Shown here: in pieces, positions 19,126-44,779 of the stretch | How positions within the stretch are numbered: the stretch's first letter is position 1 | Layout of the letters: each line of letters opens with the position of its first letter | NCBI GenBank assembly: GCA_903832295.1 | Contig: CAILAZ010000309.1 | Span: 26,595 to 90,594, forward strand | Reading direction: 5' to 3' | Source of the DNA: an uncultured Acidobacteriota bacterium | GTDB taxonomy: Bacteria; Acidobacteriota; Terriglobia; Terriglobales; Acidobacteriaceae | DNA length: 64,000 nt | Translations under genes and position numbers: made by a program | The notes under the pieces: model-generated | The model's database searches: none | What the model was told of the DNA's origin: nothing | Seen by the model: only the letters and a program-made list of their open reading frames with translations

Positions 19126-20169
19126 TCAGAGGGAAGAGGAAATTCGGGAGCCGGGTCCGGAACCAACGAAACGCCCGAGGCGTCCGATTCGCATGCGAAG
19201 GCAATGATTACACTGGGTGGCGTTCTCATCGACACAGGCCTTGCCGGGATAGATTTCGTACATCTGGCGATAAGGGGCGGGCGTGAGGATGGGCATGAAA
19301 ACATTCCCGCCGCTTTCCAGTCCATGTTCGCGCCCGTCGGTGGTGTTGATGGTGGCGAGGGCGGTGGTCGCGGGCAAGTTGGCTTGCGGACAGACGATAC
19401 GGGTGAGAGCAACGGTCTTCAGGACCATCAATTCGGTGCTGGGAACCTGATCCTCCGCGGCGCTGGGGGTGGCGGGATCTCCGAGGGGCGTTTGAGGATG
19501 AGCAAGAAATGGACCGATACCGACCATGTCGAGATCGAGTTGCCCAAAGAGGCCGATATCGCAAGCCAGCATCTCGCAGGTCTGCCCGGGGATTCCGACC
19601 ATGACGCCGCTTCCGACTTCGTAGCCAATCTGCCGCATGAAACGCAACTGTCCGATGCGATCACTAGGCGTGGCTCCCCGCAGGGGATGAATGCGGGCGT
19701 AGAGTTCTGGATCCGAGGTCTCAAAGCGGAGCAGGTAACGATCTGCTCCGGCCTGCCGCCACAGACGCAGTTCGTCGGGAAGGCGCTCACCAAGGCTGAG
19801 GGTGACGGCGAGTGGGGTTTCGCTCTTGATGACGCGAACTACTTCGGCAATCCATTCCGGCGCGAGGCCGAAGTCTTCACCGGCCTGCAAGACCACAGTT
19901 CCGAAGCCGAGGAGCACTGCCTGGCGAGCACACTGAAGAATCTCCTCCCGGCTCATGCGATAGCGCGGGATGGCGCGTGCAGCGCGCAATCCACAGTAGA
20001 GACACTGGCGCACGCAGTGGTTGGAGATTTCAATGAGTCCGCGCAGGTGAACCGCGTCGCCCACATGAGTGCGACGAGTTGCATCGGCCCGGGCAAAGAG
20101 CTGCTCCAACGCTGCCGAATCGGGCTGGCGCAGCCACTGAAGAATCTCTGGGTGGGTCAACCCTGGCAC
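19126..20169 (-). CDS. hydE: [FeFe]-hydrogenase maturase HydE (radical SAM)
   Basis: A 347-residue radical SAM enzyme with the cluster motif CVRQCLYC (CX3CX2C) near residue 52, GLIEISNHC before it and FGTVVLQAGED after it. The C-terminus carries another cysteine group (CVDENATQCNHC), as in HydE proteins with an accessory cluster. HydE acts after HydG in building the diiron part of the H-cluster. It starts at GTG 20169, 21 bases after hydG, in the order hydG-hydE. BioB was considered, but the length and neighbours fit HydE. Confidence 0.92.
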   Translation of the reverse strand: MPGLTHPEILQWLRQPDSAALEQLFARADATRRTHVGDAVHLRGLIEISNHCVRQCLYCGLRAARAIPRYRMSREEILQCARQAVLLGFGTVVLQAGEDFGLAPEWIAEVVRVIKSETPLAVTLSLGERLPDELRLWRQAGADRYLLRFETSDPELYARIHPLRGATPSDRIGQLRFMRQIGYEVGSGVMVGIPGQTCEMLACDIGLFGQLDLDMVGIGPFLAHPQTPLGDPATPSAAEDQVPSTELMVLKTVALTRIVCPQANLPATTALATINTTDGREHGLESGGNVFMPILTPAPYRQMYEIYPGKACVDENATQCNHCLRMRIGRLGRFVGSGPGSRISSSL

Positions 20170-20190: not shown

Positions 20191-21597
20191 CTACACGAAC
20201 ACATCACGCTTGCCTTTGCGCACAGCATCGATCATCGGGGTAGCGATTCGCCTCTGCTTGTCATCCATGGTCGCAACCTGATGGAGGATGTGCAGCTCCC
20301 CTGCCTGACGGGTGGCTGGAGAAGCATAGTCCTCCAGGTATTCGGTGAAAGTGGCGAGCGCGTTGGGCTCGCAGTGATACTTGATCGCTCCGGGCTTGGC
20401 GATGTCCATGAAGTCGGAACCGGTGCGTCCGGTGCGGTAGCAGGCAGTGCAGAAAGAGGGAGTGAAACCCATCTCCGCGATTTCGCGGACGACCTCATCG
20501 ACAGGGCGAATGTCTCCTACGGCAAACTGGCTGCTATGGAAGTCGCCCTGCGAGCGGGCGTAGCCGCCGGGATCGGTTCGGCTGCCGGCGGAAGTTTGTG
20601 AAATGCCGAGTTGGAAGCTCTGGTGGCGGATTGCGGACGACTCGCGGGTGGACATGATCAGGCCTGTGTAAGGAACGGCAAGGCGCAGGATCGCAGTCAA
20701 CTTGAGGAAGTCGGGGTCGCTCACCGTGTACGGGGTTGTGGCAGTAAAGTCGGTTCCCGATGCGGGTTCGAGGCGGGGAACGCTGATGGTGTGCGGCCCA
20801 CACCCAAAACGCTGCTCAAGGTGCTGTGCGTGCTGAAGCATCGCCAGCAACTCAAAGCGCCAATCGTAGATGCCGAGCAGAGCCCCAATGCCGACATCGT
20901 CAATTCCTGCCTCCATGGCACGGTCCATAACGGTGGCTCGCCAGTCGAAATCGCGCTTACGGCCCTGAAGATGGACACGGGCATAGGTTTCACGATGGTA
21001 GGTTTCCTGAAAGCACTGATATGTGCCGATGCCGGTGGCCTTGAGGTCACGAAAATCCGAGACGGAAAGAGGCGCGACGTTGACGTTTACGCGGCGAATT
21101 TCACCATTGCCGGAGCGGGTTGCATACACGGTTTCCACGGCCGAGTGGACGTACTTCAGACTGTTGTGGTCCGGGTAGGACTCTCCGGCGACAACGAGAA
21201 TACGCTTGTGTCCCTGCTCGATGATGACCCTGGTCTCGGCGGCAATTTCTTCCTGGGAGAGAACGCGGCGATGCAACTCACGATTGCTGGCTCGATATGC
21301 GCAATAGGTGCACTCATTGGCGCAAAGATTGCTGATGTAAAGTGGCGCGAACAAAACCAGGCGTGATCCGTAAATCTCCTGCTTGATGGAGCGGGCAGCG
21401 GCAAACAACTCACTCATGAGCTCAGGATCGTCCACGGCTACAAGGGCGGTGGTCTCGTTGAAGCTTAACCCCTGCATGGCTTTTGCTTTGTCCAGAATGG
21501 CCCGAATGCGCGCGGGTTCAGGACGAGCACGTTCCCTGAGACAATCGAAGATGACCTGTTCGTTGATGTAGGTGGCAATTCCCGCAGCTTCAGACAC
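20191..21597 (-). CDS. hydG: [FeFe]-hydrogenase maturase HydG (tyrosine lyase)
   Basis: A 468-residue radical SAM enzyme that splits tyrosine to give CO and cyanide for the H-cluster. CANECTYC near residue 87 binds the SAM cluster. The C-terminus has the HydG-only motif CTAC-X22-C (I counted exactly 22 residues from CTAC to the Cys of YHCEPN), which binds the auxiliary cluster carrying the dangler iron. The ORF track runs on to 22119, but AGGAGA at 21604-21610 sits eight bases before GTG 21597 (MSEAAGIATYINEQ). I choose that start. Confidence 0.94.
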   Translation of the reverse strand: MSEAAGIATYINEQVIFDCLRERARPEPARIRAILDKAKAMQGLSFNETTALVAVDDPELMSELFAAARSIKQEIYGSRLVLFAPLYISNLCANECTYCAYRASNRELHRRVLSQEEIAAETRVIIEQGHKRILVVAGESYPDHNSLKYVHSAVETVYATRSGNGEIRRVNVNVAPLSVSDFRDLKATGIGTYQCFQETYHRETYARVHLQGRKRDFDWRATVMDRAMEAGIDDVGIGALLGIYDWRFELLAMLQHAQHLEQRFGCGPHTISVPRLEPASGTDFTATTPYTVSDPDFLKLTAILRLAVPYTGLIMSTRESSAIRHQSFQLGISQTSAGSRTDPGGYARSQGDFHSSQFAVGDIRPVDEVVREIAEMGFTPSFCTACYRTGRTGSDFMDIAKPGAIKYHCEPNALATFTEYLEDYASPATRQAGELHILHQVATMDDKQRRIATPMIDAVRKGKRDVFV

Positions 21598-21645
21598 TAA
21601 TAAATCTCCTACCATACGAATAAACCCAATCCGGCGATAGGTGCG

Positions 21646-21659: not shown

Positions 21660-21739
21660 TCGCGGGCTTACTCCGGACTTGGCGGTTTGGACACAATGGA
21701 TAGACAATTGACTGCATGGAGATGGATCGAGGGCAAAGC

Positions 21740-23203
21740 ATGACCCAGCCGCAACGCATGGAAGCCGACGATCTAGGCCAGCGAGCGCTCCCCATTGAGG
21801 CGCTGTTTGGAATCCACACTGCACGTGCGATCGAGAATTTCACCCTGGCGGGGCGTCCGGTCCATGGAGCGCTGGCCCGCGCCTTTGGCGACGTAAAACT
21901 CAGTTGCGCGCTGACAAATCGCGCATTGGGATCGTGGGCAGATGATGCCGCCAAGGGCGATGCGATTGAGCGCGCCTGCCGCGACCTGGGTGAGGGGCTG
22001 CTCGACGCCCACATTGTGGTGGACGCTTTGCAGGGCGGGGCCGGCACCAGCACAAACATGAACGTGAACGAGGTTGTGGCGAACCGTGCACTGGAGTTGC
22101 TGGGGGAAGCGCACGGCAATTACGACCGGGTTTCACCGCTCAACGATGTCAACCTGCATCAATCCACAAACGATACCTACCCGACGGCGCTGAAACTGGC
22201 GGCGATCCGATTGCTGCACAAACTGGAAGCGCAAGTGATCTCTCTGCAGGAGTCTTTCCAGAGGGCAGAAAAGCGCTTTGCGCACATTGTGAAAGTGGGC
22301 CGGACTCAGTACCAGGACGCTGTGCTGACCACTCTTGGCCGCGAGATGGGCGCGTATGCGGAGGCGATCAATCGGGACCGATGGCGTATTTACAAGTGCG
22401 AGGAACGGTTGCGGGTCGTGAACCTGGGTGGAACTGCGATTGGCACCGGACTGGCTGCGCCGCGTGAGTTTATCTTTGGCGCCGTGGAGCAGTTGCGCTC
22501 ACTGACGGGGATCGGGTTTGCCCGCGCGGAGAACCTGGTGGAGGCAACGCAGAATACAGACGTCTATGTCGAAGTCTCGGGAATCCTGAAGGCACACGCC
22601 GTCAGCCTGCTGAAGATCTGCTCGGACCTGCGACTGCTCTCCTCCGGTCCAGATGCGGGGTTGGGCGAGATTCGTCTGCCTGCAAGGCAGGCGGGCTCGT
22701 CGATTATGCCTGGCAAGGTGAATCCTGTGATTCCCGAAGCCGTCAGCCAAGCGGCCATGTTGGCAATTGGAAATGACGGAGTAATCACCGCTGCCTGCGC
22801 CGCAGGCAGCCTGGAACTCAATGCGTTCCTGCCGTTAATCGCACACTGTCTGCTTGGAAACATAGACCTGTTGACGGGAGCATGTGACATCTTGAGCCGT
22901 CATTGCGTGGAGGGGATTGAGGCAGACGAGGCCAGATGCCGCGCTCACGTGGAGAATTCCACGGCGGCCGCAACGGCGCTGCTTCCTGTGCTGGGATACA
23001 GCCGGGCTGCAGAAGCTGTCCGGATTTCGAGATCAGAGGGCAGAACATTGCGCGCAGTAGTCACGGAGAACGAATGGATGAGCGCGGGAGCTTTCGACGC
23101 ATGCATCAGCCCAGAAGCGGTCTGCCGACTGGGTTCGCCGCGCGCGGCGGTGGAAGTGCCGGTTACTGCTCGCCTGTCTCCTGAGAAGGGCCGGTCGAAA
23201 TGA
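21740..23203 (+). CDS. aspA: Aspartase/fumarase-superfamily lyase in the hyd locus
   Basis: A 487-residue protein of the aspartase/fumarase superfamily. It has NLHQSTNDTYPTAL, the aspartase-like GRTQYQDAVLTTLG and the catalytic-serine loop GSSIMPGKVNPVIPE. It should release ammonia from L-aspartate to give fumarate. Lyases of this kind are often found in hydEFG clusters of anaerobes. Since the bridge of the H-cluster contains a nitrogen atom, a local ammonia supply is a plausible role, but that is inference. I choose ATG 21740 (GAGG eight bases before); ATG 21716 is possible. Its stop overlaps the hydF start as ATGA, so the two are coupled. Confidence 0.85.
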   Translation: MTQPQRMEADDLGQRALPIEALFGIHTARAIENFTLAGRPVHGALARAFGDVKLSCALTNRALGSWADDAAKGDAIERACRDLGEGLLDAHIVVDALQGGAGTSTNMNVNEVVANRALELLGEAHGNYDRVSPLNDVNLHQSTNDTYPTALKLAAIRLLHKLEAQVISLQESFQRAEKRFAHIVKVGRTQYQDAVLTTLGREMGAYAEAINRDRWRIYKCEERLRVVNLGGTAIGTGLAAPREFIFGAVEQLRSLTGIGFARAENLVEATQNTDVYVEVSGILKAHAVSLLKICSDLRLLSSGPDAGLGEIRLPARQAGSSIMPGKVNPVIPEAVSQAAMLAIGNDGVITAACAAGSLELNAFLPLIAHCLLGNIDLLTGACDILSRHCVEGIEADEARCRAHVENSTAAATALLPVLGYSRAAEAVRISRSEGRTLRAVVTENEWMSAGAFDACISPEAVCRLGSPRAAVEVPVTARLSPEKGRSK

Positions 23204-24444
23204 GTTCCACAGCAAAGGGCTTGCGGTTGCATATCGGATTGTTCGGACGGCGGAACGTTGGCAAATCGAGTCTATTGAACGCCATCACCCGGCAATCGGT
23301 ATCGATCGTCTCTCCAATTGCCGGGACGACGACGGATCCTGTCGAGAAGCCAATGGAGCTGCTTCCGCTCGGTCCTGTGTTGTTCATCGATACGGCAGGA
23401 ATCGACGAAGAAGGTGCCCTGGGAGCTTTGCGCGTTGGAAAGACACGACAGGTTTTCGAGCGAACCGAGGTGGCAATTCTGGTAGCGGAACCCGGTATCT
23501 GGGGCAGGTTCGAGGAGGAACTTGTCGCTGAGTTTTCTGCGCGGCAGACGCCGGTGATCGTTGTGTTCAATAAAGTCGATCTTGCTGCGGCAGACGACAC
23601 GGTTGTGGAGCGGTTGCGTGCGGCACAATTATGCGTGGTTATGGCCTCAGCAATTACCGGACAGGGTCTCGCGGAACTGAGGCGGGCGCTGCTGGATCTG
23701 GCACCCCCGGATTTCATTGATTCGCCATCCATTGTTGGCGACCTGGTTGGCCCGGGCGAAATGGTTGTGCTGGTGGTTCCCATCGACAAAGAGGCTCCGA
23801 AGGGACGACTGATTTTGCCTCAGGTTCAGACGATCCGCGACCTGCTGGACAGCGATGCCATCTGCATGGTGGTGAAGGAACGTGAGCTTCGCACCGCGCT
23901 TGCACGCCTGAATACACCACCCAGGCTGGTGGTGACCGATTCGCAGGCTTTTCTGAAAGTTGCCGCAGACACGCCAAAGGAGGTCGCGCTGACCAGTTTC
24001 TCCATTCTGATGGCGCGTTTCAAAGGCAATCTGACTGCACAGGTAGAGGGCACGCTTGCCATCGAGAAGCTGCGCTCCGGGGACCGTATTCTGGTAGCGG
24101 AGGCGTGTACGCATCATCCCATTGGCGAAGACATTGGGCGGGTGAAGATTCCCCGCTGGCTGGCGCAGTACACTGGTGCCAAGCTGGATTTCGTTTCCAT
24201 GCAAGGGCTTGATTTTCCTGATGATCTGAGCAGTTACAAGCTGGTGATCCACTGTGGAGCCTGCATGTGGAATCGACGGCAGATGCTTAGCCGCATCCTG
24301 CAGTGCAAACAGGCTGGCGTTCCTATTACCAACTACGGGCTGACGATCGCCTACAGTCTGGGGATTTTCGGACGCGCGCTGGAGCCGTTCCCGGCGGCTT
24401 TGGCGCTTTATCAGGAACTGGAAGGTCCGCCTCCAAGAGCATGA
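23200..24444 (+). CDS. hydF: [FeFe]-hydrogenase maturation GTPase HydF
   Basis: A 414-residue protein. The N-terminal GTPase has GRRNVGKSSLLNAI (P-loop), SPIAGTTTDPV (switch I), DTAGIDE and NKVD. The C-terminal part binds the [4Fe-4S] cluster with CTHHPIGED and HCGACMWNRRQM. HydF is the scaffold that receives the diiron unit made by HydG and HydE and hands it to HydA. Coupled to the lyase gene. Confidence 0.94.
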   Translation: MSSTAKGLRLHIGLFGRRNVGKSSLLNAITRQSVSIVSPIAGTTTDPVEKPMELLPLGPVLFIDTAGIDEEGALGALRVGKTRQVFERTEVAILVAEPGIWGRFEEELVAEFSARQTPVIVVFNKVDLAAADDTVVERLRAAQLCVVMASAITGQGLAELRRALLDLAPPDFIDSPSIVGDLVGPGEMVVLVVPIDKEAPKGRLILPQVQTIRDLLDSDAICMVVKERELRTALARLNTPPRLVVTDSQAFLKVAADTPKEVALTSFSILMARFKGNLTAQVEGTLAIEKLRSGDRILVAEACTHHPIGEDIGRVKIPRWLAQYTGAKLDFVSMQGLDFPDDLSSYKLVIHCGACMWNRRQMLSRILQCKQAGVPITNYGLTIAYSLGIFGRALEPFPAALALYQELEGPPPRA

Positions 24445-24677: not shown

Positions 24678-26687
24678 ATGAAAGAGAACACCATGGCCCG
24701 TCTTTATTATGGAGTCTGGAACGGCTTGGTTCTAGACAATCGCGGCAGAAGCGCTGCGAGCGATCCTTTTTCCGAATTTGAGCGGTTTGGAGACTTCAAC
24801 GAAGGAAACCCTATTCGCGCATTTTTCGGCGATTTGGGCTTTCTTGTTTTTGACCCAAAAGTGAGTCTTGTGGACGCTTTCTGGCGTTACCTGGACGAGG
24901 CGGCCAAACAGTCTTGCGGCAGATGCACGCCATGCCGAATGGGAACTGTGCTGGTGCGTGACTCGCTGGACCGGTTGCGCAAGGGGATGGTGCCGCAACT
25001 TGATTTCGAAGGTATTCGTGCCCTGGCGCAGCAGATGACAGAGACCTCGCTGTGCGGTCTTGGCCAGACCTGCGCCAAGGCGCTGCTGGGGGCGCTCGAT
25101 CATTTCCGCGACCGACTTGAGGCCGAGGTCGCGACCCTCCGGGTTCCCGAGCAGAATGGCATGACGTACATGACGGCGCCATGCATCCAGGCCTGCCCTT
25201 CCAAGATCAACGTGCCTCGCTACATTGACTACATCCGTGATGGAAAGCCAGAGCACTCCCTGGGAGTGATTCTGCAGAAGTACCCGATGGCCGCCACCTG
25301 CGGCCGGGTCTGCGTAAGATTCTGCGAGATGGCATGCAGGCGCAACCTGGTAGATCAGGCGGTGAGCATCAAGACGCTCAAGCGCTATGTCGCCGATCAC
25401 CAGAAGGGAAAGCGGGAACTCCGTTTTAATGAAGACCTGATAGCCCATCCGTTGCCGGAAGATATGCGGGTCGCAGTAGTAGGAGCCGGACCGGCCGGAG
25501 TGTCTTGTGCCTATCACCTTCTACTCCGCGGCTATCACGTGGATATTCTGGAAGCCGGCGGCACAGCCGGTGGCATGGCGGCCATTGGAATTCCCGCCTA
25601 TCGGCTTCCCAAAGATGTATTAAAATCCGAGACCGATATTATTACCGCACTCGGCGGGCGCTTCCTCTTCAAACAGGCTCTTGGACGAGAATATTCCGTG
25701 GATGACCTGTTCCAGCGCGGCTACAAAGCAGTGTTCCTTGCGCTGGGATGCCAGCAGGGCACACGCTTGGGTGTGAAGGATGAGGATCCCACGCTTGCAG
25801 GCTATGAGGCGGGTATCGGATTCCTGCTGAAGGTTCACGACCACATTGCGGGGATCAAGATCACCAGATTGTCAGGCGAGGTTGTGGTGGTTGGCGGCGG
25901 AAACGTAGCAATGGATTGCGTGCGCTCCGCCCTGCGAATGGGTGCGGAAAAAGTGCACCTGGTGTATCGCCGCACCCGCGAGGACATGCCCGCCGACGAG
26001 GAAGAAATCAAAGCAGCCGAAGAGGAAGGAGCAATTTTCCACTTTCTTTCCAATCCCGCAGCGGTGAAGTCCGAGGATGGCCGGGTGATTGGACTGGAAC
26101 TGGTGAAGATGCGCTCGACCGATGCCGACGCGCAAGGAAGGCGCAACGTGCAGGCCATCCCTGGCACCGAACACTTTATGCCCTGCACGACACTGATTGC
26201 TGCCATAGGACAGCAAGTACAAAGCGGTGTGATCCAATCTGGCGACGGAGTGACGATGAACCGCTGGAACTGCGTTGACGCCCAACCGATTAACCTGATG
26301 ACATCACGCCCGGGCGTCTTCGCCGGCGGTGACTGCGCATCCGGCCCCTCGACGTTGATTCATGCAATGGCAAACGGACTCCAGGCAGCGCGCTCGATTG
26401 ACGACTGGATACAACTTGGGCAGGTACGCTTCTCGCCACGAGTGCGAATGCGACGAATCCTGAATGAACACAAGATGCTGAACTCTGATTGCGTTGATAT
26501 TCCGGTGAAGTTGGAGTACCGCGTGCACCACCCGGAGTTGGACCCCGAAGTGCGCAAGTACATGTTCGAAGAAGTGGAACGTACGATCAGCCCTGAGGAG
26601 GCTTATCACGAGGCCAAGCGCTGCATGCGCTGTTACCGGATCTACTCGGTCATCACCGAGCATCCCATTCCGGAAGGGGCGTCATAG
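24678..26687 (+). CDS. Hydrogenase partner: NuoF-type iron-sulfur domain fused to GltD/NfnB-like NADPH module
   Basis: A 669-residue protein. Near residue 75 lies CGRCTPCRMG, the N3 cluster motif of NuoF/HydB, with the fourth Cys in SLCGLGQTC. The FMN- and NAD-binding front part of NuoF is missing and no NuoE-like gene is nearby. The rest is a GltD/NfnB-like flavoprotein: CIQACPSKINVPRYI and CGRVCVRFCEMAC for clusters, VAVVGAGPAGVSCAYHL for FAD, and VVGGGNVAMDCVRSA with YRRTREDMPA, typical of NADPH binding. It probably connects HydA to NADP(H). Start uncertain: ATG 24678, ATG 24693 or TTG 24618. hydA follows three bases after its stop. Confidence 0.85.
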   Translation: MKENTMARLYYGVWNGLVLDNRGRSAASDPFSEFERFGDFNEGNPIRAFFGDLGFLVFDPKVSLVDAFWRYLDEAAKQSCGRCTPCRMGTVLVRDSLDRLRKGMVPQLDFEGIRALAQQMTETSLCGLGQTCAKALLGALDHFRDRLEAEVATLRVPEQNGMTYMTAPCIQACPSKINVPRYIDYIRDGKPEHSLGVILQKYPMAATCGRVCVRFCEMACRRNLVDQAVSIKTLKRYVADHQKGKRELRFNEDLIAHPLPEDMRVAVVGAGPAGVSCAYHLLLRGYHVDILEAGGTAGGMAAIGIPAYRLPKDVLKSETDIITALGGRFLFKQALGREYSVDDLFQRGYKAVFLALGCQQGTRLGVKDEDPTLAGYEAGIGFLLKVHDHIAGIKITRLSGEVVVVGGGNVAMDCVRSALRMGAEKVHLVYRRTREDMPADEEEIKAAEEEGAIFHFLSNPAAVKSEDGRVIGLELVKMRSTDADAQGRRNVQAIPGTEHFMPCTTLIAAIGQQVQSGVIQSGDGVTMNRWNCVDAQPINLMTSRPGVFAGGDCASGPSTLIHAMANGLQAARSIDDWIQLGQVRFSPRVRMRRILNEHKMLNSDCVDIPVKLEYRVHHPELDPEVRKYMFEEVERTISPEEAYHEAKRCMRCYRIYSVITEHPIPEGAS

Positions 26688-26689
26688 CC

Positions 26690-28522
26690 ATGAATTCCTA
26701 TACCGTCGAACCCTCTGCGCTGATAAAGGCCTCCATCAACGGACAAGCGGTTACCGCCGAAGCAAATGAGACGATTCTGAGTTGCGCACGGCGGCATCAG
26801 ATACACATTCCCACGTTATGCGAGATGCAGGATATTGACCATGCGCCCGGTACGTGCAGGGTGTGCCTCGTCGAGATCCATATGCCTGGCCGCGAACAAC
26901 CCCAGACCGTTACCAGTTGCAATACCCCGGTACATGATGGAATGGAGATTCAGACCCGCACGCCTCGGATCCGCGAGATGCAGCGGTTGCAGGTGGAACT
27001 TCTGTTGGCTGACCACAACCAGGACTGCGCCACCTGCGTTCGCCATGGAAACTGTGAATTGCAGGACGTGTGTCAGTTTGTTGGACTCCAGTCAAACCGC
27101 TTCTTTGATCCAGTTCGCGTGGCTTCAAGGAAGGTGGACCGCACCTCGCCCGCGCTGATCCGCGACATGACCAAGTGCATCCGATGCCAACGTTGTGTTG
27201 CACTCTGCCGCGACGGACAGGGAGTGGACGCACTGGTGATTACCGGGACCGGGCAGGACACCGCTGTGGGATTGCATTATGGGCCATCGCAGAAGGATTC
27301 CACTTGTGTCACCTGCGGACAGTGCGTGCTGGTGTGCCCGACCGGAGCGCTGGGCGCGCGCGATGAGACCGACGCAGCTCTCGATATGCTGTATGACCCA
27401 GAGATCATCACGGTGTTTCAGTTTGCGCCCGCTGTGCGTGTTGGCTTCGGCGAAGAATTCGGAATGCCCCCGGGAAGCAACGTTGAAGGAGAGATCATCA
27501 GCGCGTTGCGCCAGATGGGCGCAGACATCGTGCTCGACACGAACTTTGCCGCCGATGTCGTGATCATGGAGGAGAGCACTGAGTTGCTGCGGCATCTCTC
27601 GGCCAACCGGCGTCCGACCTTTACTTCGTGCTGCCCGGCGTGGATTAACTTCGCCGAGCGCCACTATCCCGATATCCTGCCATTGCTGTCGTCAACCAAG
27701 TCTCCGCAGCAGTGCCTAGGGAAGATTGCCAAGACGTATCTACCCGAACGCATGGGCCTTGATCCTGCGCGAATCCGCGTCATCTCAATCATGCCCTGCA
27801 CCGCGAAGAAGGATGAACGGGTGCGCGGACAACTCGCCGAGAACGGCGTGCCCGAGGTGGATCTGGTGTTGACCACCCGCGAATTTGCGCGGCTGTTGAA
27901 ACGCCAGGGGATCAATCTTGCCACGCTCGAAAAATCCACATTCGACAATCCCTACATGACGAACTATTCGGGTGCGGGCGCAATCTTCGGGACCACTGGC
28001 GGCGTGATGGAAGCGGCAGTGCGAACCATGTACAAGACCGTAACCGGCAAGGAACTGGATCAGATGGAGCTGACGCAACTGCGCGGCTTCGAGGGAATCC
28101 GGTCAGCCACGGTGCAGGTTGGCGACCTTGAAGTAAAGGTGGCCATGTGCCACGGGCTGAAGTCGGCGCGCGAAATCGTTGAGGCCGTCCGCGCCGGAAC
28201 TGTTGATTTTGACTTCATCGAGATCATGGCCTGTCCTGGAGGGTGCGTGGACGGAGGCGGCACTCTGCGATCCAAGAAGGCGTATCGTCCGTTCGCAGCG
28301 AAACGACGCGAGACCATGTTCGCCATCGACCGGAATGCAAAAATCCGCCAATCGCATAACAATCCGCAGGTGAAGGCACTCTACGAAAACTTCCTGGAGC
28401 ACCCTTATTCGGAAAAAGCTCACCACTTGCTCCATACGTACTACACAGATCGCCACATCAACATGGTGCGGACGGTGAAGGAAATCTGGAACGAGATTAC
28501 GATGAGCACGATGGTGTACTGA
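26690..28522 (+). CDS. hydA: [FeFe] hydrogenase catalytic subunit HydA
   Basis: A 610-residue modular [FeFe] hydrogenase. The N-terminus has a plant-type [2Fe-2S] site (CRVCLVEI and partner cysteines) and a His-ligated [4Fe-4S] site (DHNQDCATCVRHGNCELQ). Two ferredoxin clusters follow (CIRCQRCVALC and CVTCGQCVLVCP). The H-cluster motifs are complete: TSCCPAW at residues 312-318, MPCTAKKDE from 368 and EIMACPGGCVDGGG from 511. The C-terminus is the small-subunit-like region (YSEKAHHLLHTYY). It interconverts protons and H2 in the cytoplasm, with the NADPH-type neighbour as likely electron partner. Confidence 0.95.
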   Translation: MNSYTVEPSALIKASINGQAVTAEANETILSCARRHQIHIPTLCEMQDIDHAPGTCRVCLVEIHMPGREQPQTVTSCNTPVHDGMEIQTRTPRIREMQRLQVELLLADHNQDCATCVRHGNCELQDVCQFVGLQSNRFFDPVRVASRKVDRTSPALIRDMTKCIRCQRCVALCRDGQGVDALVITGTGQDTAVGLHYGPSQKDSTCVTCGQCVLVCPTGALGARDETDAALDMLYDPEIITVFQFAPAVRVGFGEEFGMPPGSNVEGEIISALRQMGADIVLDTNFAADVVIMEESTELLRHLSANRRPTFTSCCPAWINFAERHYPDILPLLSSTKSPQQCLGKIAKTYLPERMGLDPARIRVISIMPCTAKKDERVRGQLAENGVPEVDLVLTTREFARLLKRQGINLATLEKSTFDNPYMTNYSGAGAIFGTTGGVMEAAVRTMYKTVTGKELDQMELTQLRGFEGIRSATVQVGDLEVKVAMCHGLKSAREIVEAVRAGTVDFDFIEIMACPGGCVDGGGTLRSKKAYRPFAAKRRETMFAIDRNAKIRQSHNNPQVKALYENFLEHPYSEKAHHLLHTYYTDRHINMVRTVKEIWNEITMSTMVY

Positions 28523-33556: not shown

Positions 33557-33727
33557 ACACTGCGAAGGTCCAGCGCACTCCCCTGCTTGCGGTATTTTTC
33601 GCTACACAGGCAACCGAGTGCGCTTATTTGCGTCAATCGCCGCCTTGCTCTGTGATATAACCGTCGGACTTTATCTCACCGCAGCGGCAGTTGAAGCGGA
33701 GAGTTTCGATTGGTTTCAGGAGGATAT

Positions 33728-35557
33728 GTGGCCACACCGAGCGGCGCTAACGAAAGACCGTCCAAGCCCAACTTACCTGCGAAATCCGAAAGCTGGGTCA
33801 CCGTCATCGTCCTCACGGTTGTTGCTGCGGGAGCAGCAGCCTGGTTGCTGAATACGAACCACGTCACCTCACCATGGCAGCAGAATTACGATCCCGTCGG
33901 ACACTGGTTGCTCTCCGCGCTCGTTGCGGCGCTCCCTGTCATCGTGCTCCTTGGAAGCCTTGCTCTCGGACACGTCAAGGCGCACTATGCTGCCCTTGCG
34001 GGTCTGGCCACCGCGCTTTTGACCGCAATCCTGGGCTTCCACATGCCCGCGAGGCTGGCCCTTACCACTGCCGTTTACGGTGCAGGCTACGGGTTATTTC
34101 CCATTGGCTGGATCGTGCTCAACGTGATCTTCATGTATCAACTCACGGTTGAGTCCGGACGATTCAAGGTGCTCCAGCACAGCCTGACTGGCATCACCCA
34201 GGACCGCCGCCTCCAGTTGTTGTTGATCGCGTTCTGCTTCGGAGCCTTCTTCGAGGGCGCGGCAGGTTTTGGAACACCGGTCGCTGTCACCGCTGCCCTG
34301 CTCATCGGACTCGGCTTCAAACCGCTTCAAGCCTCCGGTCTTTCTCTCATCGCCAACACTGCCCCCGTTGCTTTCGGAGCTCTGGGCACCCCGATCATCG
34401 CACTTGCCAAAGTGACCGGATTCAGCGAAGTAGTACTCGCCGCCATGACCGGGCGCATCCTCGCTCCCTTCTGCATCATCGTTCCCTTCTGGCTGATCTG
34501 GGCATTCGTCGGATTCAAGGGGATGGTCGAGGTTTGGCCCGCAATCCTGGTGGCTGGAGTCTCATTCGCCGTGCCGCAGTTGCTGGTTTCCAATATGCAC
34601 GGCCCATGGTTGGTGAACGTGATCTCCGCCGTCATTTCTATGATCTGCCTTATCGGATTCCTGCTGGTCTGGCATCCAAAGAAAATCTGGACATTCGCGG
34701 ATGAGACCAGCAAGAGCGCCAGGGCGGACCACGGCTACAGCCGCGCCGATATCTCTCGTGCCTGGGTGCCATGGATCATTCTCAGCGTGATTGTATTCAC
34801 CTGGGGAACACAGACCGGCAAGCTCTGGATGAATACACCAGAGAAAGTCATTCCTTCCACCTCAACATGGAATCCAAAGCCGAGCCAGATTACCAACCCG
34901 CAGTTTCCGGTCGCCGGACTTCACAACAATGTCGAGCGCGTCCCTCCCGTGGTGCTGAAGCCAACCAAAGAGCCTGCCGTATTCCAGCTCAACTGGGTGA
35001 GCGCAACCGGAACGGGCATTCTGCTTTCGGCTGTTCTGTCAGGACTTGTGATGGGGGTATCCTTCAGCGGGATCTTCCGGATCTACCTGAACACAATCCA
35101 CAAAGTGCGCTTCTCTCTCCTGACCATTGCTGCAATGCTTGCCGTCGGCATGCTGACCCGCTACAGCGGGCTGGATGCCACCATGGGGCTGGCGTTCGCC
35201 AAGACCGGGCAGTTCTATCCCTTCTTTGGCACCATGCTGGGCTGGCTTGGAGTGGCACTCACCGGCTCTGACACCTCTTCCAATGTGCTGTTCGGCAGTC
35301 TGCAGAAGATCTCCGCGCAGCAGGTGGGCGTCTCACCCATTCTGATGTCTGCCGCCAACAGCACCGGCGGAGTGATGGGCAAGATGATCGACGCCCAGAG
35401 TATCGTCGTGGCATCCACTGCAACCCAGTGGTACGGCCACGAGGGCGATATTCTGCGTTATGTATTTCTGCACAGCCTTGTACTGGCCGCGCTGGTCGGC
35501 GTTTACGTCTATCTACTCGCCTACATTCCCCCTTTCACGCAGCTCGTAGTGCATTAA
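33728..35557 (+). CDS. lldP: Second lactate permease (LctP family)
   Basis: A 609-residue permease, paralogous to the one at 10553 over its whole length, with the same FGAFFEGAAGFGTPVAVTAA and TGSDTSSNVLFGS motifs and the same FTQLVVH end. Codon choice differs: this copy prefers C-ending codons where the first copy prefers G or A. I take GTG 33728 as start, with AGGAGG at 33718-33723; an ATG two bases earlier is out of frame. It precedes a D-lactate dehydrogenase, so it may serve D-lactate or both forms. Confidence 0.9.
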   Translation: MATPSGANERPSKPNLPAKSESWVTVIVLTVVAAGAAAWLLNTNHVTSPWQQNYDPVGHWLLSALVAALPVIVLLGSLALGHVKAHYAALAGLATALLTAILGFHMPARLALTTAVYGAGYGLFPIGWIVLNVIFMYQLTVESGRFKVLQHSLTGITQDRRLQLLLIAFCFGAFFEGAAGFGTPVAVTAALLIGLGFKPLQASGLSLIANTAPVAFGALGTPIIALAKVTGFSEVVLAAMTGRILAPFCIIVPFWLIWAFVGFKGMVEVWPAILVAGVSFAVPQLLVSNMHGPWLVNVISAVISMICLIGFLLVWHPKKIWTFADETSKSARADHGYSRADISRAWVPWIILSVIVFTWGTQTGKLWMNTPEKVIPSTSTWNPKPSQITNPQFPVAGLHNNVERVPPVVLKPTKEPAVFQLNWVSATGTGILLSAVLSGLVMGVSFSGIFRIYLNTIHKVRFSLLTIAAMLAVGMLTRYSGLDATMGLAFAKTGQFYPFFGTMLGWLGVALTGSDTSSNVLFGSLQKISAQQVGVSPILMSAANSTGGVMGKMIDAQSIVVASTATQWYGHEGDILRYVFLHSLVLAALVGVYVYLLAYIPPFTQLVVH

Positions 35558-35569
35558 CCTGTTACACGG

Positions 35570-35595
35570 GGCGGCCATGATTCTTCCTGGCCGCC
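35570..35595 (+). other. Intercistronic hairpin between permease and D-lactate dehydrogenase
   Basis: GGCGGCC (35570-35576), twelve-base loop, GGCCGCC (35589-35595), with no strong T-run. Same relative position as the hairpin at 12422 in the L-lactate operon. Confidence 0.5.
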
Positions 35596-35617
35596 TCATC
35601 TTTCCAGGAGCAATCAT

Positions 35618-38485
35618 ATGGCGGTAACTGCTGTGGCACGCCCTTCCTACTCACCTGAACAACTGAACACCATGCTGGCCCAGATTCTGGATGAGCGCCG
35701 CATCCTGATGCGCCCCATCGATCTCATCGCCTACGCTTCCGACGCCGGCTTCTACAGGCTCATCCCTAAAGCGGTAGTGCAGGCAGCCAGCGAGCAGGAA
35801 GTGGAGCGCCTCTTTCGTTTCAGCCATACTCATTCCATTCCCATCACTTTTCGGGCTGCGGGCACCAGCCTTTCCGGTCAGTCCATCTCCGATGGTTTGC
35901 TCGTCGAGGTCACGCGCAATTTCCGCGACCTCCAGGTGCTCGAGAACGGCCGTCGCATTCGCGTTCAACCAGGGGCGATTGGCACCAGCGCCAACCGCGC
36001 ACTTCTCCCTTATGGAGTGAAGATCGGTCCGGACCCTGCGTCCATTGCGACCTGCACTCTCGGAGGAATTCTCTCCAACAATTCCAGCGGAATGTGTTGC
36101 GGCGTGGAGCAGAATGCCTACCACACCCTGGCTTCGCTCCGCTTCCTGCTGCCGTCGGGCACCTCCATTGACACCGCCGCCCCCGATGCCGACCAGCAAT
36201 TCTTCGCGAAAGAACCCGCCCTCGCCCGCGGCGTTCTCGAGCTGAAGGCAAGAATTGAGCGCGACCCGGTTCTGGCCGAACGCGTGCGCCGCAAGTATCG
36301 AACCAAGAACACCACCGGGTATGGCATCAACGCCTTCCTGGATTTCGAGCGTGCTGTGGACATCTTTGCCCACCTGCTCATTGGTTCGGAAGGCACCCTG
36401 GCCTTCATCTCCGAGGCGGTGCTCAATACCGTGCCGGAGCTTCCGGTAAAATACACCGGGCTGCTGCTCTTCCCTGATCTCTACGCCGCGTCCGAATCGA
36501 TCGTTCCCCTGCGCCAGGCCGGAGCCAAGGCGCTGGAAATCATGGATCGGGCTTCCCTGCGTTCCGTTGAAAATCAAGCCGGTACTCCTCCAATCATCAA
36601 GACCTTGGCGGACGGCGCTGCCGGATTGCTCGTCGAGTTCCAGTCCGCATCAGAGTCTGGTCGCGCGGAGCTTGAGGCCCTCGCTGCTGAATCCACTTCG
36701 AGCCTTATGCTGCTTGAACCCGCACAATTCACTCACTCGGCCGCCGCCCAGGCTGCGCTCTGGAAGATCCGTGCCGGCATGTTCCCTTCCGTTGGCTCGG
36801 TTCGCAAGAGCGGAACCACGGTCATCATCGAAGATGTTGCCTTCCCGATCGAGCACCTCGCCCCCGCGGCACAGGAGTTGAATGGACTCTTCCAACGCCA
36901 CGAGTATGACAACGCCATCATTTTCGGCCACGCTAAGGACGGGAATCTCCACTTTGTCATCACCCAGTCCTTCAACGATCAGCGTGCCATCGACCAGTAC
37001 TCGCACTTCATTGATGACGTCGTCGAACTGGTCGTCCATAGATTTGATGGTGCCCTCAAGGCCGAACACGGCACCGGGCGCAACATGGCTCCTTTCGTCG
37101 AGACCGAGTGGGGCGCGGAAGCCTACGAGATCATGCGTCAGGTCAAGTCGCTGGCCGATCCCACTGGTCTGCTCAATCCCGGCGTCATCATCAACTCCGA
37201 CCCGCTGGCTCACCTGCACAACCTCAAGCAGTTGCCTACCGTCGAACCCGAAATCGACAAGTGCATCGAGTGTGGTTACTGCGAGCCGCGCTGTCCCAGC
37301 CGCGATCTCACTCTCACTCCGCGCCAGCGCATCGTCGTGCGTCGCGAGATGACGCGCCAGCAACAACTCGGCGGCAGCGCAATGCTCACGCAGCTCGAGA
37401 GCGACTTCCCCTACATGGCGCTCGACACCTGCGCGGTTGATGGCCTTTGCGCTACCACCTGCCCCGTCAGCATCGACACCGGAAAGGTCGTCAAGCGCTT
37501 CCGCGCGCTGAGGAATTCTGACTTCGCCAAGGGCGTGGCCAGGTTCACTGTGGACAATTTCAGCTTGGTAGAGACTCTCATCCGCATTGGTCTCAGCGCC
37601 GCACATCTTGCCCAGCGCATGGTCGGAGTCAAGGGCATGCAGGTAATCACCGGAGCCATGCGCAGGGTGATCGGCCCTAATATGCCCATATGGACGGCAG
37701 AGATGCCGCACGCAACCAGGGGCGGCATTCCGCCCACCAGCCGAGCCAAAGCTCAAGCCGTGTATTTCCCTGCTTGCATCTCCCGCGTCATGGGGCGCCT
37801 TCCCGGTGAACCCAGCGAGATGAACCTGATGCAGGCCACCGTCACAGTGGCAGATCGAGCCGGGGTTCCCGTCTGGATTCCGGAAGACGTTGCCGGAAAT
37901 TGCTGCGGCACACCTTACTCATCCAAGGGCTTTGAGGAATCGCGCGACGCAATGTTGAATCGGGTGATCGCCAACTTCTGGAGCTGGTCCAGTGAAGGCA
38001 AACTGCCCATCATGGTTGACACAAGTCCCTGCACCTATGGACTGACACATGCCCGCGAGTTTCTCACGCCGGAAAACCAGCAACGCTTTGATCGCCTCCG
38101 CATCGTGGACAGCATTGAATTCGTCCACGACCAGTTGCTTACCAGGCTCACGGTACGTCAGCCTGACAATTCCGTTGCGCTGCATCCAGTCTGCTCCGCC
38201 GTGAAGATGGGGCTCAATGGAAAGCTGGACGCCATCGCCCGAAAGTGCAGTGGCGAGGTCTTCATTCCTCCCAGCCTCGGCTGCTGCGCCTTCGCCGGAG
38301 ACCGCGGCTTCATGTACCCGGAGCTCACCGCCTCGGCCACCGCCAGCGAAGCGGCGGAGATCAAGGCGCATAAGCACGACGCTTGCTACTCCAGCAGCCG
38401 CACTTGCGAGATCGGGATGACCCGCTCTACCGGCGAGGTTTACCGCTCTTATATGTATCTGCTGGAGAAAGTGACGCGAGGATGA
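35618..38485 (+). CDS. dld: FAD/iron-sulfur D-lactate dehydrogenase (Dld-II/GlcD-F type)
   Basis: A 955-residue enzyme. Residues 40-250 form an FAD-binding-4 domain (FRAAGTSLSGQ, GILSNNSSGM) and 260-540 the FAD-oxidase C-terminal domain (HAKDGNLHFV, KAEHGTGRNMAPF). Two [4Fe-4S] motifs follow, CIECGYCEPRCPSRD from residue 549 and CAVDGLCATTCPVS near 606. Two CCG-like regions close it (NCCGTPYSSKG and GCCAFAGDRG). This layout matches iron-sulfur D-lactate dehydrogenases of the Dld-II kind, which oxidise D-lactate to pyruvate and feed the quinone pool. A glycolate or other 2-hydroxyacid is possible, but the permease next door favours lactate. Confidence 0.88.
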   Translation: MAVTAVARPSYSPEQLNTMLAQILDERRILMRPIDLIAYASDAGFYRLIPKAVVQAASEQEVERLFRFSHTHSIPITFRAAGTSLSGQSISDGLLVEVTRNFRDLQVLENGRRIRVQPGAIGTSANRALLPYGVKIGPDPASIATCTLGGILSNNSSGMCCGVEQNAYHTLASLRFLLPSGTSIDTAAPDADQQFFAKEPALARGVLELKARIERDPVLAERVRRKYRTKNTTGYGINAFLDFERAVDIFAHLLIGSEGTLAFISEAVLNTVPELPVKYTGLLLFPDLYAASESIVPLRQAGAKALEIMDRASLRSVENQAGTPPIIKTLADGAAGLLVEFQSASESGRAELEALAAESTSSLMLLEPAQFTHSAAAQAALWKIRAGMFPSVGSVRKSGTTVIIEDVAFPIEHLAPAAQELNGLFQRHEYDNAIIFGHAKDGNLHFVITQSFNDQRAIDQYSHFIDDVVELVVHRFDGALKAEHGTGRNMAPFVETEWGAEAYEIMRQVKSLADPTGLLNPGVIINSDPLAHLHNLKQLPTVEPEIDKCIECGYCEPRCPSRDLTLTPRQRIVVRREMTRQQQLGGSAMLTQLESDFPYMALDTCAVDGLCATTCPVSIDTGKVVKRFRALRNSDFAKGVARFTVDNFSLVETLIRIGLSAAHLAQRMVGVKGMQVITGAMRRVIGPNMPIWTAEMPHATRGGIPPTSRAKAQAVYFPACISRVMGRLPGEPSEMNLMQATVTVADRAGVPVWIPEDVAGNCCGTPYSSKGFEESRDAMLNRVIANFWSWSSEGKLPIMVDTSPCTYGLTHAREFLTPENQQRFDRLRIVDSIEFVHDQLLTRLTVRQPDNSVALHPVCSAVKMGLNGKLDAIARKCSGEVFIPPSLGCCAFAGDRGFMYPELTASATASEAAEIKAHKHDACYSSSRTCEIGMTRSTGEVYRSYMYLLEKVTRG

Positions 38486-42430: not shown

Positions 42431-42868
42431 CACGCTTCCTCGCTGGAGGACTGAGCATTTCAGCTTCCCTTTCTCCAAGTCAGGCCTCTGCAAAACGCAA
42501 TGCGGATCGATGCGTACGTAAGCTATTGAACTGTATGTACTTATGTTTGATCCCAAGTGCTTAATCTCCACCCTCGCCAAATCCTCCCAGGAAACGCCTT
42601 AGGAATATCTAATAAACAAGCACTTAGACGAAACTGCGGACGGGCTCTATCTCAACGAATCGTCCCTCGCCAAGACACACTCTTTCTGTGCATCTTAGGC
42701 GCAAGTCCTCTCATCTATTAAGTTGACAGTAACTCACTCAGGTTCTATCATCGCAATCATGTTAGGTCTGAGTAGGGCAGCTTACATGTGTCCCATCAGA
42801 GTTTTAGCGGCCCTCACAAGCCGTGCATAGGCAAGATTCTCAGCTTTACCGCAGGAGGCGAGAGGCAA
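42431..42868. other. 438-base gap between the hypothetical gene and dnaK
   Basis: No gene is supported here. Its right part holds the dnaK promoter listed separately. The left part is AT-richer than its surroundings and shows no structure I can name. Confidence 0.4.
42723..42751 (+). promoter_or_regulatory. Strong sigma-70-like promoter of dnaK
   Basis: TTGACA (42723-42728) and TATCAT (42746-42751) are exactly 17 bases apart. ACTCAG (42736-42741, in the spacer) and CTGAGT (42768-42773) form an inverted pair centred about 32 bases apart. HspR operators (HAIR) read CTTGAGT-N7-ACTCAAG, so these resemble half-sites, but the spacing is not canonical. The leader would be about 110 bases. Confidence 0.7.

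Positions 42869-44779
<1,911 letters not shown>

Follow-up and report, generated by a model that had tools for sequence, protein, structure and literature searches.

The closest described counterpart of the locus treated here is a gene pair of Pelobacter carbinolicus, in which the SfrB-like protein Pcar_2503 was proposed as the NADPH-oxidizing partner of the [FeFe] hydrogenase HndD1 (Pcar_2502; Aklujkar et al. 2012, PMC3543383). That case is a single pair in a single species; it was predicted from annotation without domain, ligand or tree analysis, and is compared here by description. Related modules are SfrB2, the 76-kDa subunit of the Moorella thermoacetica formate dehydrogenase that works with NADPH only (SfrB2, SfrA2, FdhF3; PMC13040438), and StnC of Sporomusa ovata StnABC, whose flavin adenine dinucleotide (FAD) is a non-bifurcating flavin according to structure and mutants (Kumar et al. 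2023, PMC10482914). The present locus, a hydA gene with an SfrB-like partner gene upstream, lies in a 64,000-nucleotide stretch of an uncultured Acidobacteriaceae bacterium (the window), which is part of contig C309 in a draft genome of 4.87 Mb, 351 contigs and 94.6% completeness. A reading made earlier from the sequence only had presented the pair as a type of its own; since the pairing was predicted in 2012, that uniqueness falls away, and the pair belongs to a widespread variant without introducing a new principle. The two genes, separated by 2 bp between the partner stop and the hydA start, and their domains are as follows.

24693-26687, plus strand: partner gene (SfrB-like), NuoF C-terminal/N3 domain joined to a StnC-type GltD flavoprotein, 664 amino acids
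24876-25124, plus strand: N3 [4Fe-4S] domain of NuoF (PF10589), with Cys80, Cys83, Cys86 and Cys126 invariant in 76 partners
25173-25409, plus strand: Fer4_20 domain, with Cys169, Cys173, Cys208, Cys212, Cys216, Cys220 and Lys235 invariant
25464-26378, plus strand: FAD and NADPH Rossmann domains (PF07992), with R309, GGGNVAMD and Y-R431-R432 invariant
26622-26633, plus strand: C-terminal RCxRC (Cys649, Cys652), supplying cluster ligands located N-terminally in NfnB
26690-28522, plus strand: hydA, [FeFe] hydrogenase catalytic subunit, 610 amino acids
26723-27367, plus strand: NuoG-like N-terminal electron-wire domain of HydA ([2Fe-2S], His-Cys3 [4Fe-4S], two [4Fe-4S])
27410-28453, plus strand: H-cluster domain of HydA (TSCCP, MPCTAKK, MACPGGC) and small-subunit domain

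The partner reading frame encodes 669 residues from position 24678 and 664 from the inner ATG at 24693. The inner ATG is most likely the start, because the family consensus M-A-x-x-x-Y-G-V-W-D-G begins there and an AAAGAG element precedes it. In the 669-residue form, Pfam matches follow one another as PF10589 (NADH_4Fe-4S, residues 67-149, E 7e-22), PF14691 (Fer4_20, residues 166-244, E 1e-21) and PF07992 (Pyr_redox_2, residues 263-567, E 2e-26); the same search found no PF01512 (Complex1_51K), the flavin mononucleotide (FMN) domain, in the partner or nearby. Residues 1-155 of the shorter form, folded alone (predicted local distance difference test, pLDDT, 88), match the C-terminal third of NuoF and HydB chains, with a best Z of 15.1 over 121 aligned residues (Thermotoga maritima HydB 418-568, Escherichia coli NuoF 284-425). 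The FMN module is therefore missing, while a small piece of the domain preceding N3 is kept. Family members have a median length of 665 residues and no FMN homolog joined upstream of N3. The N3 domain is thus fused N-terminally to GltD without an FMN domain and adjoins a protein with a NuoG-like N-terminal domain, HydA, which is the SfrB-type architecture as defined from the N3-GltD homologs found here. The sequence-only reading, in which NuoF had kept N3, lost its FMN/NAD module and gained a GltD-type flavoprotein with an NADPH signature, agrees with these domains, with the N-terminal model, and with the GGGNVAMD and invariant Arg-Arg pair of the second Rossmann domain.

The full-length model (pLDDT 88; predicted template modelling score 0.86) fits StnC-type chains best, at Z 34.4-36.9 over 470-475 residues (9bov_A, Z 36.9 over 470; 8oh5_C, Z 35.4 over 472), against Z 28.1 over 409 residues for NfnB (5jca_L). 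The additional residues matched in the StnC-type fits are those of the C-terminal tail ending in RCxRC. HMMER aligns partner residues 620-652 to residues 10-42 of T. maritima NfnB, where the RCxxC precedes Fer4_20, and the cluster ligands of the partner are therefore permuted as in StnC. In StnC, Lys170 takes the place of the NfnB Glu at the proximal cluster, and Arg239 makes no contact with FAD N5 (PMC10482914). Alignment to StnC places Lys235 (codon 25380-25382) at the K170 position and also places Arg309. Lysine occupies this position in 76/76 HydA-paired partners, in all 37 N3-GltD homologs of Desulfobacterota (mostly beside formate dehydrogenases) and in all 29 NuoF-GltD fusion sequences. 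The partner thus carries both marks of a StnC-type GltD, the lysine and the C-terminal CxxC completing the clusters, and lacks the Glu ligand of the FAD-proximal [4Fe-4S] that distinguishes NfnB (PMC10482914). All HydA-paired partners have Cys208, whereas the Desulfobacterota homologs mostly have a hydrophobic residue there. With NfnAB the partner shares the GltD-fold NADPH/FAD domain and two [4Fe-4S] clusters, but its proximal Glu is a Lys, its ligands are permuted and NfnA is absent. With StnABC it shares the permuted CxxC, the FAD-proximal Lys, the NADPH site and, probably, the non-bifurcating character of the FAD; StnC, however, is fused to NuoG and feeds the bifurcating StnAB, whereas the window pair has neither StnAB nor HydBC and its catalytic end is HydA.

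HydA matches PF02906 (E 9e-89) and PF02256, has the full set of N-terminal Fe-S domains and scores above the cut-off of TIGR02512. Conservation of its Cys and His ligands among 77 relatives is 99% or higher, and the motifs TSCCP, MPCxxKK and MACPGGC together with HydEFG maturases place it in [FeFe] group A. The model for NADH-dependent group A6 hydrogenases (NF040763) gives 730 bits, under its curated cut-off of 765. Among solved structures, the closest HydA is that of the bifurcating HydABC of Acetobacterium woodii. The HydA architecture is shared with HydABC (group A3; A. woodii, Thermoanaerobacter kivui, T. maritima), and N3 corresponds to the C-terminal third of the HydB core, but the window pair lacks the FMN domain, HydC/NuoE and the HydB ferredoxin domain, has an NADPH/FAD module instead, and its HydA belongs to a separate clade. 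As in the glutamate-synthase-linked group A2 of HydDB (PMC5037454), a GltD-type protein is encoded next to HydA; the A2 rule, however, takes a downstream GltD without NuoF, and the window partner lies upstream with a NuoF piece. The gene 3' of hydA encodes an EamA transporter, so the HydDB rule would assign A1; none of the HydDB classes provides for an N3-GltD partner encoded upstream.

The pair recurs widely. In a scan of GTDB genomes (~85,000 species) for HydA, the best 80 loci, at 53-80% identity, come from Alpha-, Beta- and Gammaproteobacteria, Desulfobacterota, Eisenbacteria, Krumholzibacteriia, Verrucomicrobia and Acidobacteriaceae. The domain order that the sequence-only reading had proposed looking for next to hydA is found throughout: the GltD domain lies directly upstream in 80/80 loci, and N3 and GltD both do so on the same strand in 79, the contig of the 80th starting inside the GltD domain. 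Recurrence in 80 loci excludes a chance association. HydA-paired partners form one clade (Shimodaira-Hasegawa-like approximate likelihood ratio 100), separate from the formate-dehydrogenase-linked set and from the NuoF-GltD fusions; the paired HydA likewise form one clade (support 100/100), separate from HydABC-type and fusion-linked HydA. Across 73 genomes, the pairwise distances among HydA sequences and those among partners have a correlation of 0.93. Such correlations retain shared species history, and the comparison with the maturases is therefore the informative part: in subsets, HydA and partner correlate at 0.94-0.96, HydA and maturases at 0.79-0.90, so that no other two genes of the locus co-vary as strongly as HydA and partner.

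The nearest copy from Acidobacteriaceae, at 76-82% identity, is in a second metagenome-assembled genome (MAG; locus L100). Since the pair occurs there too and the guanine-cytosine content is even across the window, a chimeric contig is rejected. Close family members of the window genome are without this HydA, and in the trees the window sequences fall next to those of an Azospirillaceae MAG, within a clade made up mainly of Proteobacteria, which suggests horizontal transfer. No plasmid copies of the pair were found. A frameshift splits HydA in L100 (2187-4030) and the partner in L122 (3979-5978), reflecting sequencing errors or decay.

Taken together, the proteins probably act as a reversible, non-bifurcating H2:NADP+ oxidoreductase, soluble and built as a heterodimer or as a multimer of that dimer. 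By analogy, NADPH would give hydride to the FAD in the GltD domain, and electrons would leave singly through the two GltD [4Fe-4S] clusters to N3. From N3 they would pass to the NuoG-like N-terminal clusters of HydA by a contact of the complex I type (NuoF-NuoG, also present in HydABC), the HydA N-terminal domain being the expected docking surface, and then to the H-cluster, where H2 would be formed; the reverse route would give NADPH. The partner would take the place of HydBC as pyridine-nucleotide module, like SfrB2 in the Moorella enzyme. There, too, an SfrB-type NADPH module feeds a catalytic protein, and gene neighbourhoods are similar in Desulfobacterota, but the catalytic part is a formate dehydrogenase and not an H-cluster hydrogenase. 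NADPH (~-370 mV) and H2 at 250 Pa (~-340 mV) are near equilibrium (PMC13040438; PMC6288185), and no bifurcation is therefore needed. The likely role is fermentative disposal of NADPH electrons at low H2; H2 uptake is possible. An Arg pair comparable to the invariant Arg-Arg of the partner was modelled as holding the NADP 2'-phosphate in Fdh3B, which binds NAD(P) in a Thermococcus formate dehydrogenase (PMC8965080). The sequence-only reading had proposed a two-subunit H2:NADP+ oxidoreductase that differs from HydABC and Hnd, and this proposal is supported.

Several points weigh against this assignment. The contact between HydA and partner is drawn from analogy, the chains having been folded singly. 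The preference for NADP over NAD is read from motifs (GGGNVAMD, the invariant Arg-Arg) and homologs. The N3-GltD architecture of Moorella SfrB2 rests on the family name. HydA is so like that of A. woodii HydABC that ferredoxin may still interact. The open-licence literature yielded no biochemical data on any member, and a characterised one may exist in the closed literature.

Bifurcation or confurcation of NADPH and ferredoxin with H2, through NfnB-like FAD or ferredoxin docking on HydA, is an improbable alternative. In its favour, the flavin domain shares homology with NfnB at 34-37% identity, R309 is retained at the position of NfnB R201, and HydA is like that of a bifurcating enzyme. StnC, however, retains the same Arg with a FAD that does not bifurcate (PMC10482914), and the NfnB Glu ligand is replaced by Lys without exception. 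No HydBC core (FMN, NuoE-like [2Fe-2S], HydB ferredoxin-like C-terminal domain) lies next to the pair, no NfnA is adjacent in the window, the long-flank loci hold no further conserved gene for electron transfer, and the partner lacks a second acceptor site. With neither HydBC core nor NfnA, the pair has no known bifurcation route. For the Nfn-Bfu enzyme, Schut et al. (2022) predicted that the GltD FAD is an NADP(H) site only (PMC9304861). Bifurcation by the partner FAD, which the sequence-only reading had kept in play, thus appears unlikely from the cluster ligands. A minimal two-subunit energy-coupling hydrogenase, with a Lys-ligated (or Cys208/Lys-switching) FAD-proximal cluster and NADPH and ferredoxin acting jointly on one HydA without HydBC/NfnA core, is very improbable.

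That the hydrogenase borrows a HoxEF or NuoEF FMN module from elsewhere in the genome, the partner being an extra NADPH input, has only a slight chance of being correct. No NuoE or FMN gene stands beside the pair, and PF01257 (HydC/NuoE-like) is absent from the contig, as the sequence-only reading had held for NuoE. FMN genes occur elsewhere in the genome, in HoxEFUYH (C264), in complex I (C167, assigned by NuoE/NuoF/NuoG order) and in a NuoF-like/GltD cluster with Ptb-Buk-like genes, but those of C264 and C167 sit with their own partners (HoxUYH; complex I), and the partner N3 would fill the same HydA site as a borrowed module. Where a NuoE-NuoF set adjoins the pair, that set has its own second HydA. 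A missing FMN subunit encoded elsewhere is accordingly rejected, each FMN gene lying in its own operon. Finally, ferredoxin or viologens by themselves can serve enzymes of the HydA type, but that HydA here works alone with ferredoxin beside an unrelated co-transcribed NADPH oxidoreductase is hardly credible given the 80/80 linkage, the monophyly of both proteins, their co-variation, and the occurrence of partner-type N3 otherwise beside proteins with NuoG-like N-terminal domains.

The H2:NADP+ oxidoreductase proposed here has relatives in other settings. A strong N3-GltD homolog is present in 69/247 Desulfobacterota genomes, and most copies inspected, more distant in sequence than the HydA-paired partners, adjoin a NuoG-N/formate dehydrogenase protein (e.g. 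L174, L175, L195); several of these formate dehydrogenase reading frames stop at NNVDHCARL, where a selenocysteine TGA is expected, and are apparent selenoproteins. In other Acidobacteriota, most homologs are proteins of ~1,020-1,220 residues that keep the FMN domain together with GltD, with NuoE upstream in several loci. Seven FMN-NuoF/N3/GltD fusions (L035, L040, L045, L048, L050, L051, L056), ~1,040-1,200 residues long and mostly preceded by NuoE, adjoin a HydA-like gene whose match covers 380 residues or more, possibly as an H2/NAD/NADP enzyme in a clade of its own. Recent FMN loss from these Acidobacteriota fusions as the origin of the partner is rejected, the fusions falling in another clade of a tree that is midpoint-rooted only. 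In the window genome, contig C103 (L015:7028-10763) encodes a NuoF-like protein of 535 residues and a NuoG-N/GltD fusion of 702, next to AcpS, phosphotransbutyrylase-like and butyrate-kinase-like genes. In some Alphaproteobacteria and one Eisenbacteria MAG (L070, L073, L075, L077, L088, L063), a NuoE-NuoF-HydA set with a TSCSP motif stands next to the pair as a unit of its own. The commonest extra neighbour, in 25-26 of 64 loci, is a NitT/TauT-like ABC transporter (binding protein ~315 residues, ATPase ~256) in Alphaproteobacteria and Desulfobacterota (L136:7837-8784; L064-L068, L091-L107, L122, L123, L128), absent in the window.

Upstream of the pair, maturation genes identified by profile matches occupy both strands, with hydE and hydG on the minus strand and aspA, hydF, partner and hydA in that order on the plus strand.

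19126-20169, minus strand: hydE, radical SAM maturase
20191-21600 (start approximate), minus strand: hydG, radical SAM maturase
21716-23203, plus strand: aspA, aspartate ammonia-lyase, between hydG and hydF
23200-24444, plus strand: hydF, H-cluster maturation GTPase

The position of aspA between hydG and hydF is common to many hyd clusters, and aspA is also among the maturation genes of P. carbinolicus, where the [FeFe] hydrogenase likewise stands beside an SfrB-like protein. AspA encoded beside hydF has been described as an ammonium source for H-cluster synthesis, for the dithiomethylamine ligand (PMC11736057), and by analogy the window aspA likely serves the same end. About 5 kb downstream of hydA, an L-lactate permease is followed by an FAD/Fe-S D-lactate-dehydrogenase-like protein (33710-38485). 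A minus-strand open reading frame at 42782-43936 has a strong PF10712 (NAD-GH) match and overlaps a longer plus-strand frame; the family is possibly one of shadow reading frames.

From domains, ligands and trees, the pair appears to be a broad, coherent variant of NAD(P)-coupled [FeFe] hydrogenases, predicted once before and carried by no fewer than 80 species, among them many proteobacteria that are phototrophic or ferment. The downstream-gene rule of HydDB would label the window enzyme ferredoxin-dependent, and the nearest NCBIfam model calls it NADH-dependent. If the enzymes of this family are NADPH-coupled, predictions of H2 metabolism change for purple bacteria, Propionivibrio/Accumulibacter, Desulfobacterota and soil Acidobacteriota. 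For recycling NADPH with H2, an [FeFe] H2:NADP+ enzyme that is soluble and has only two subunits would be a simple catalyst, and it would offer a clean test of one GltD module wired to a hydrogenase, a formate dehydrogenase or a bifurcating core.

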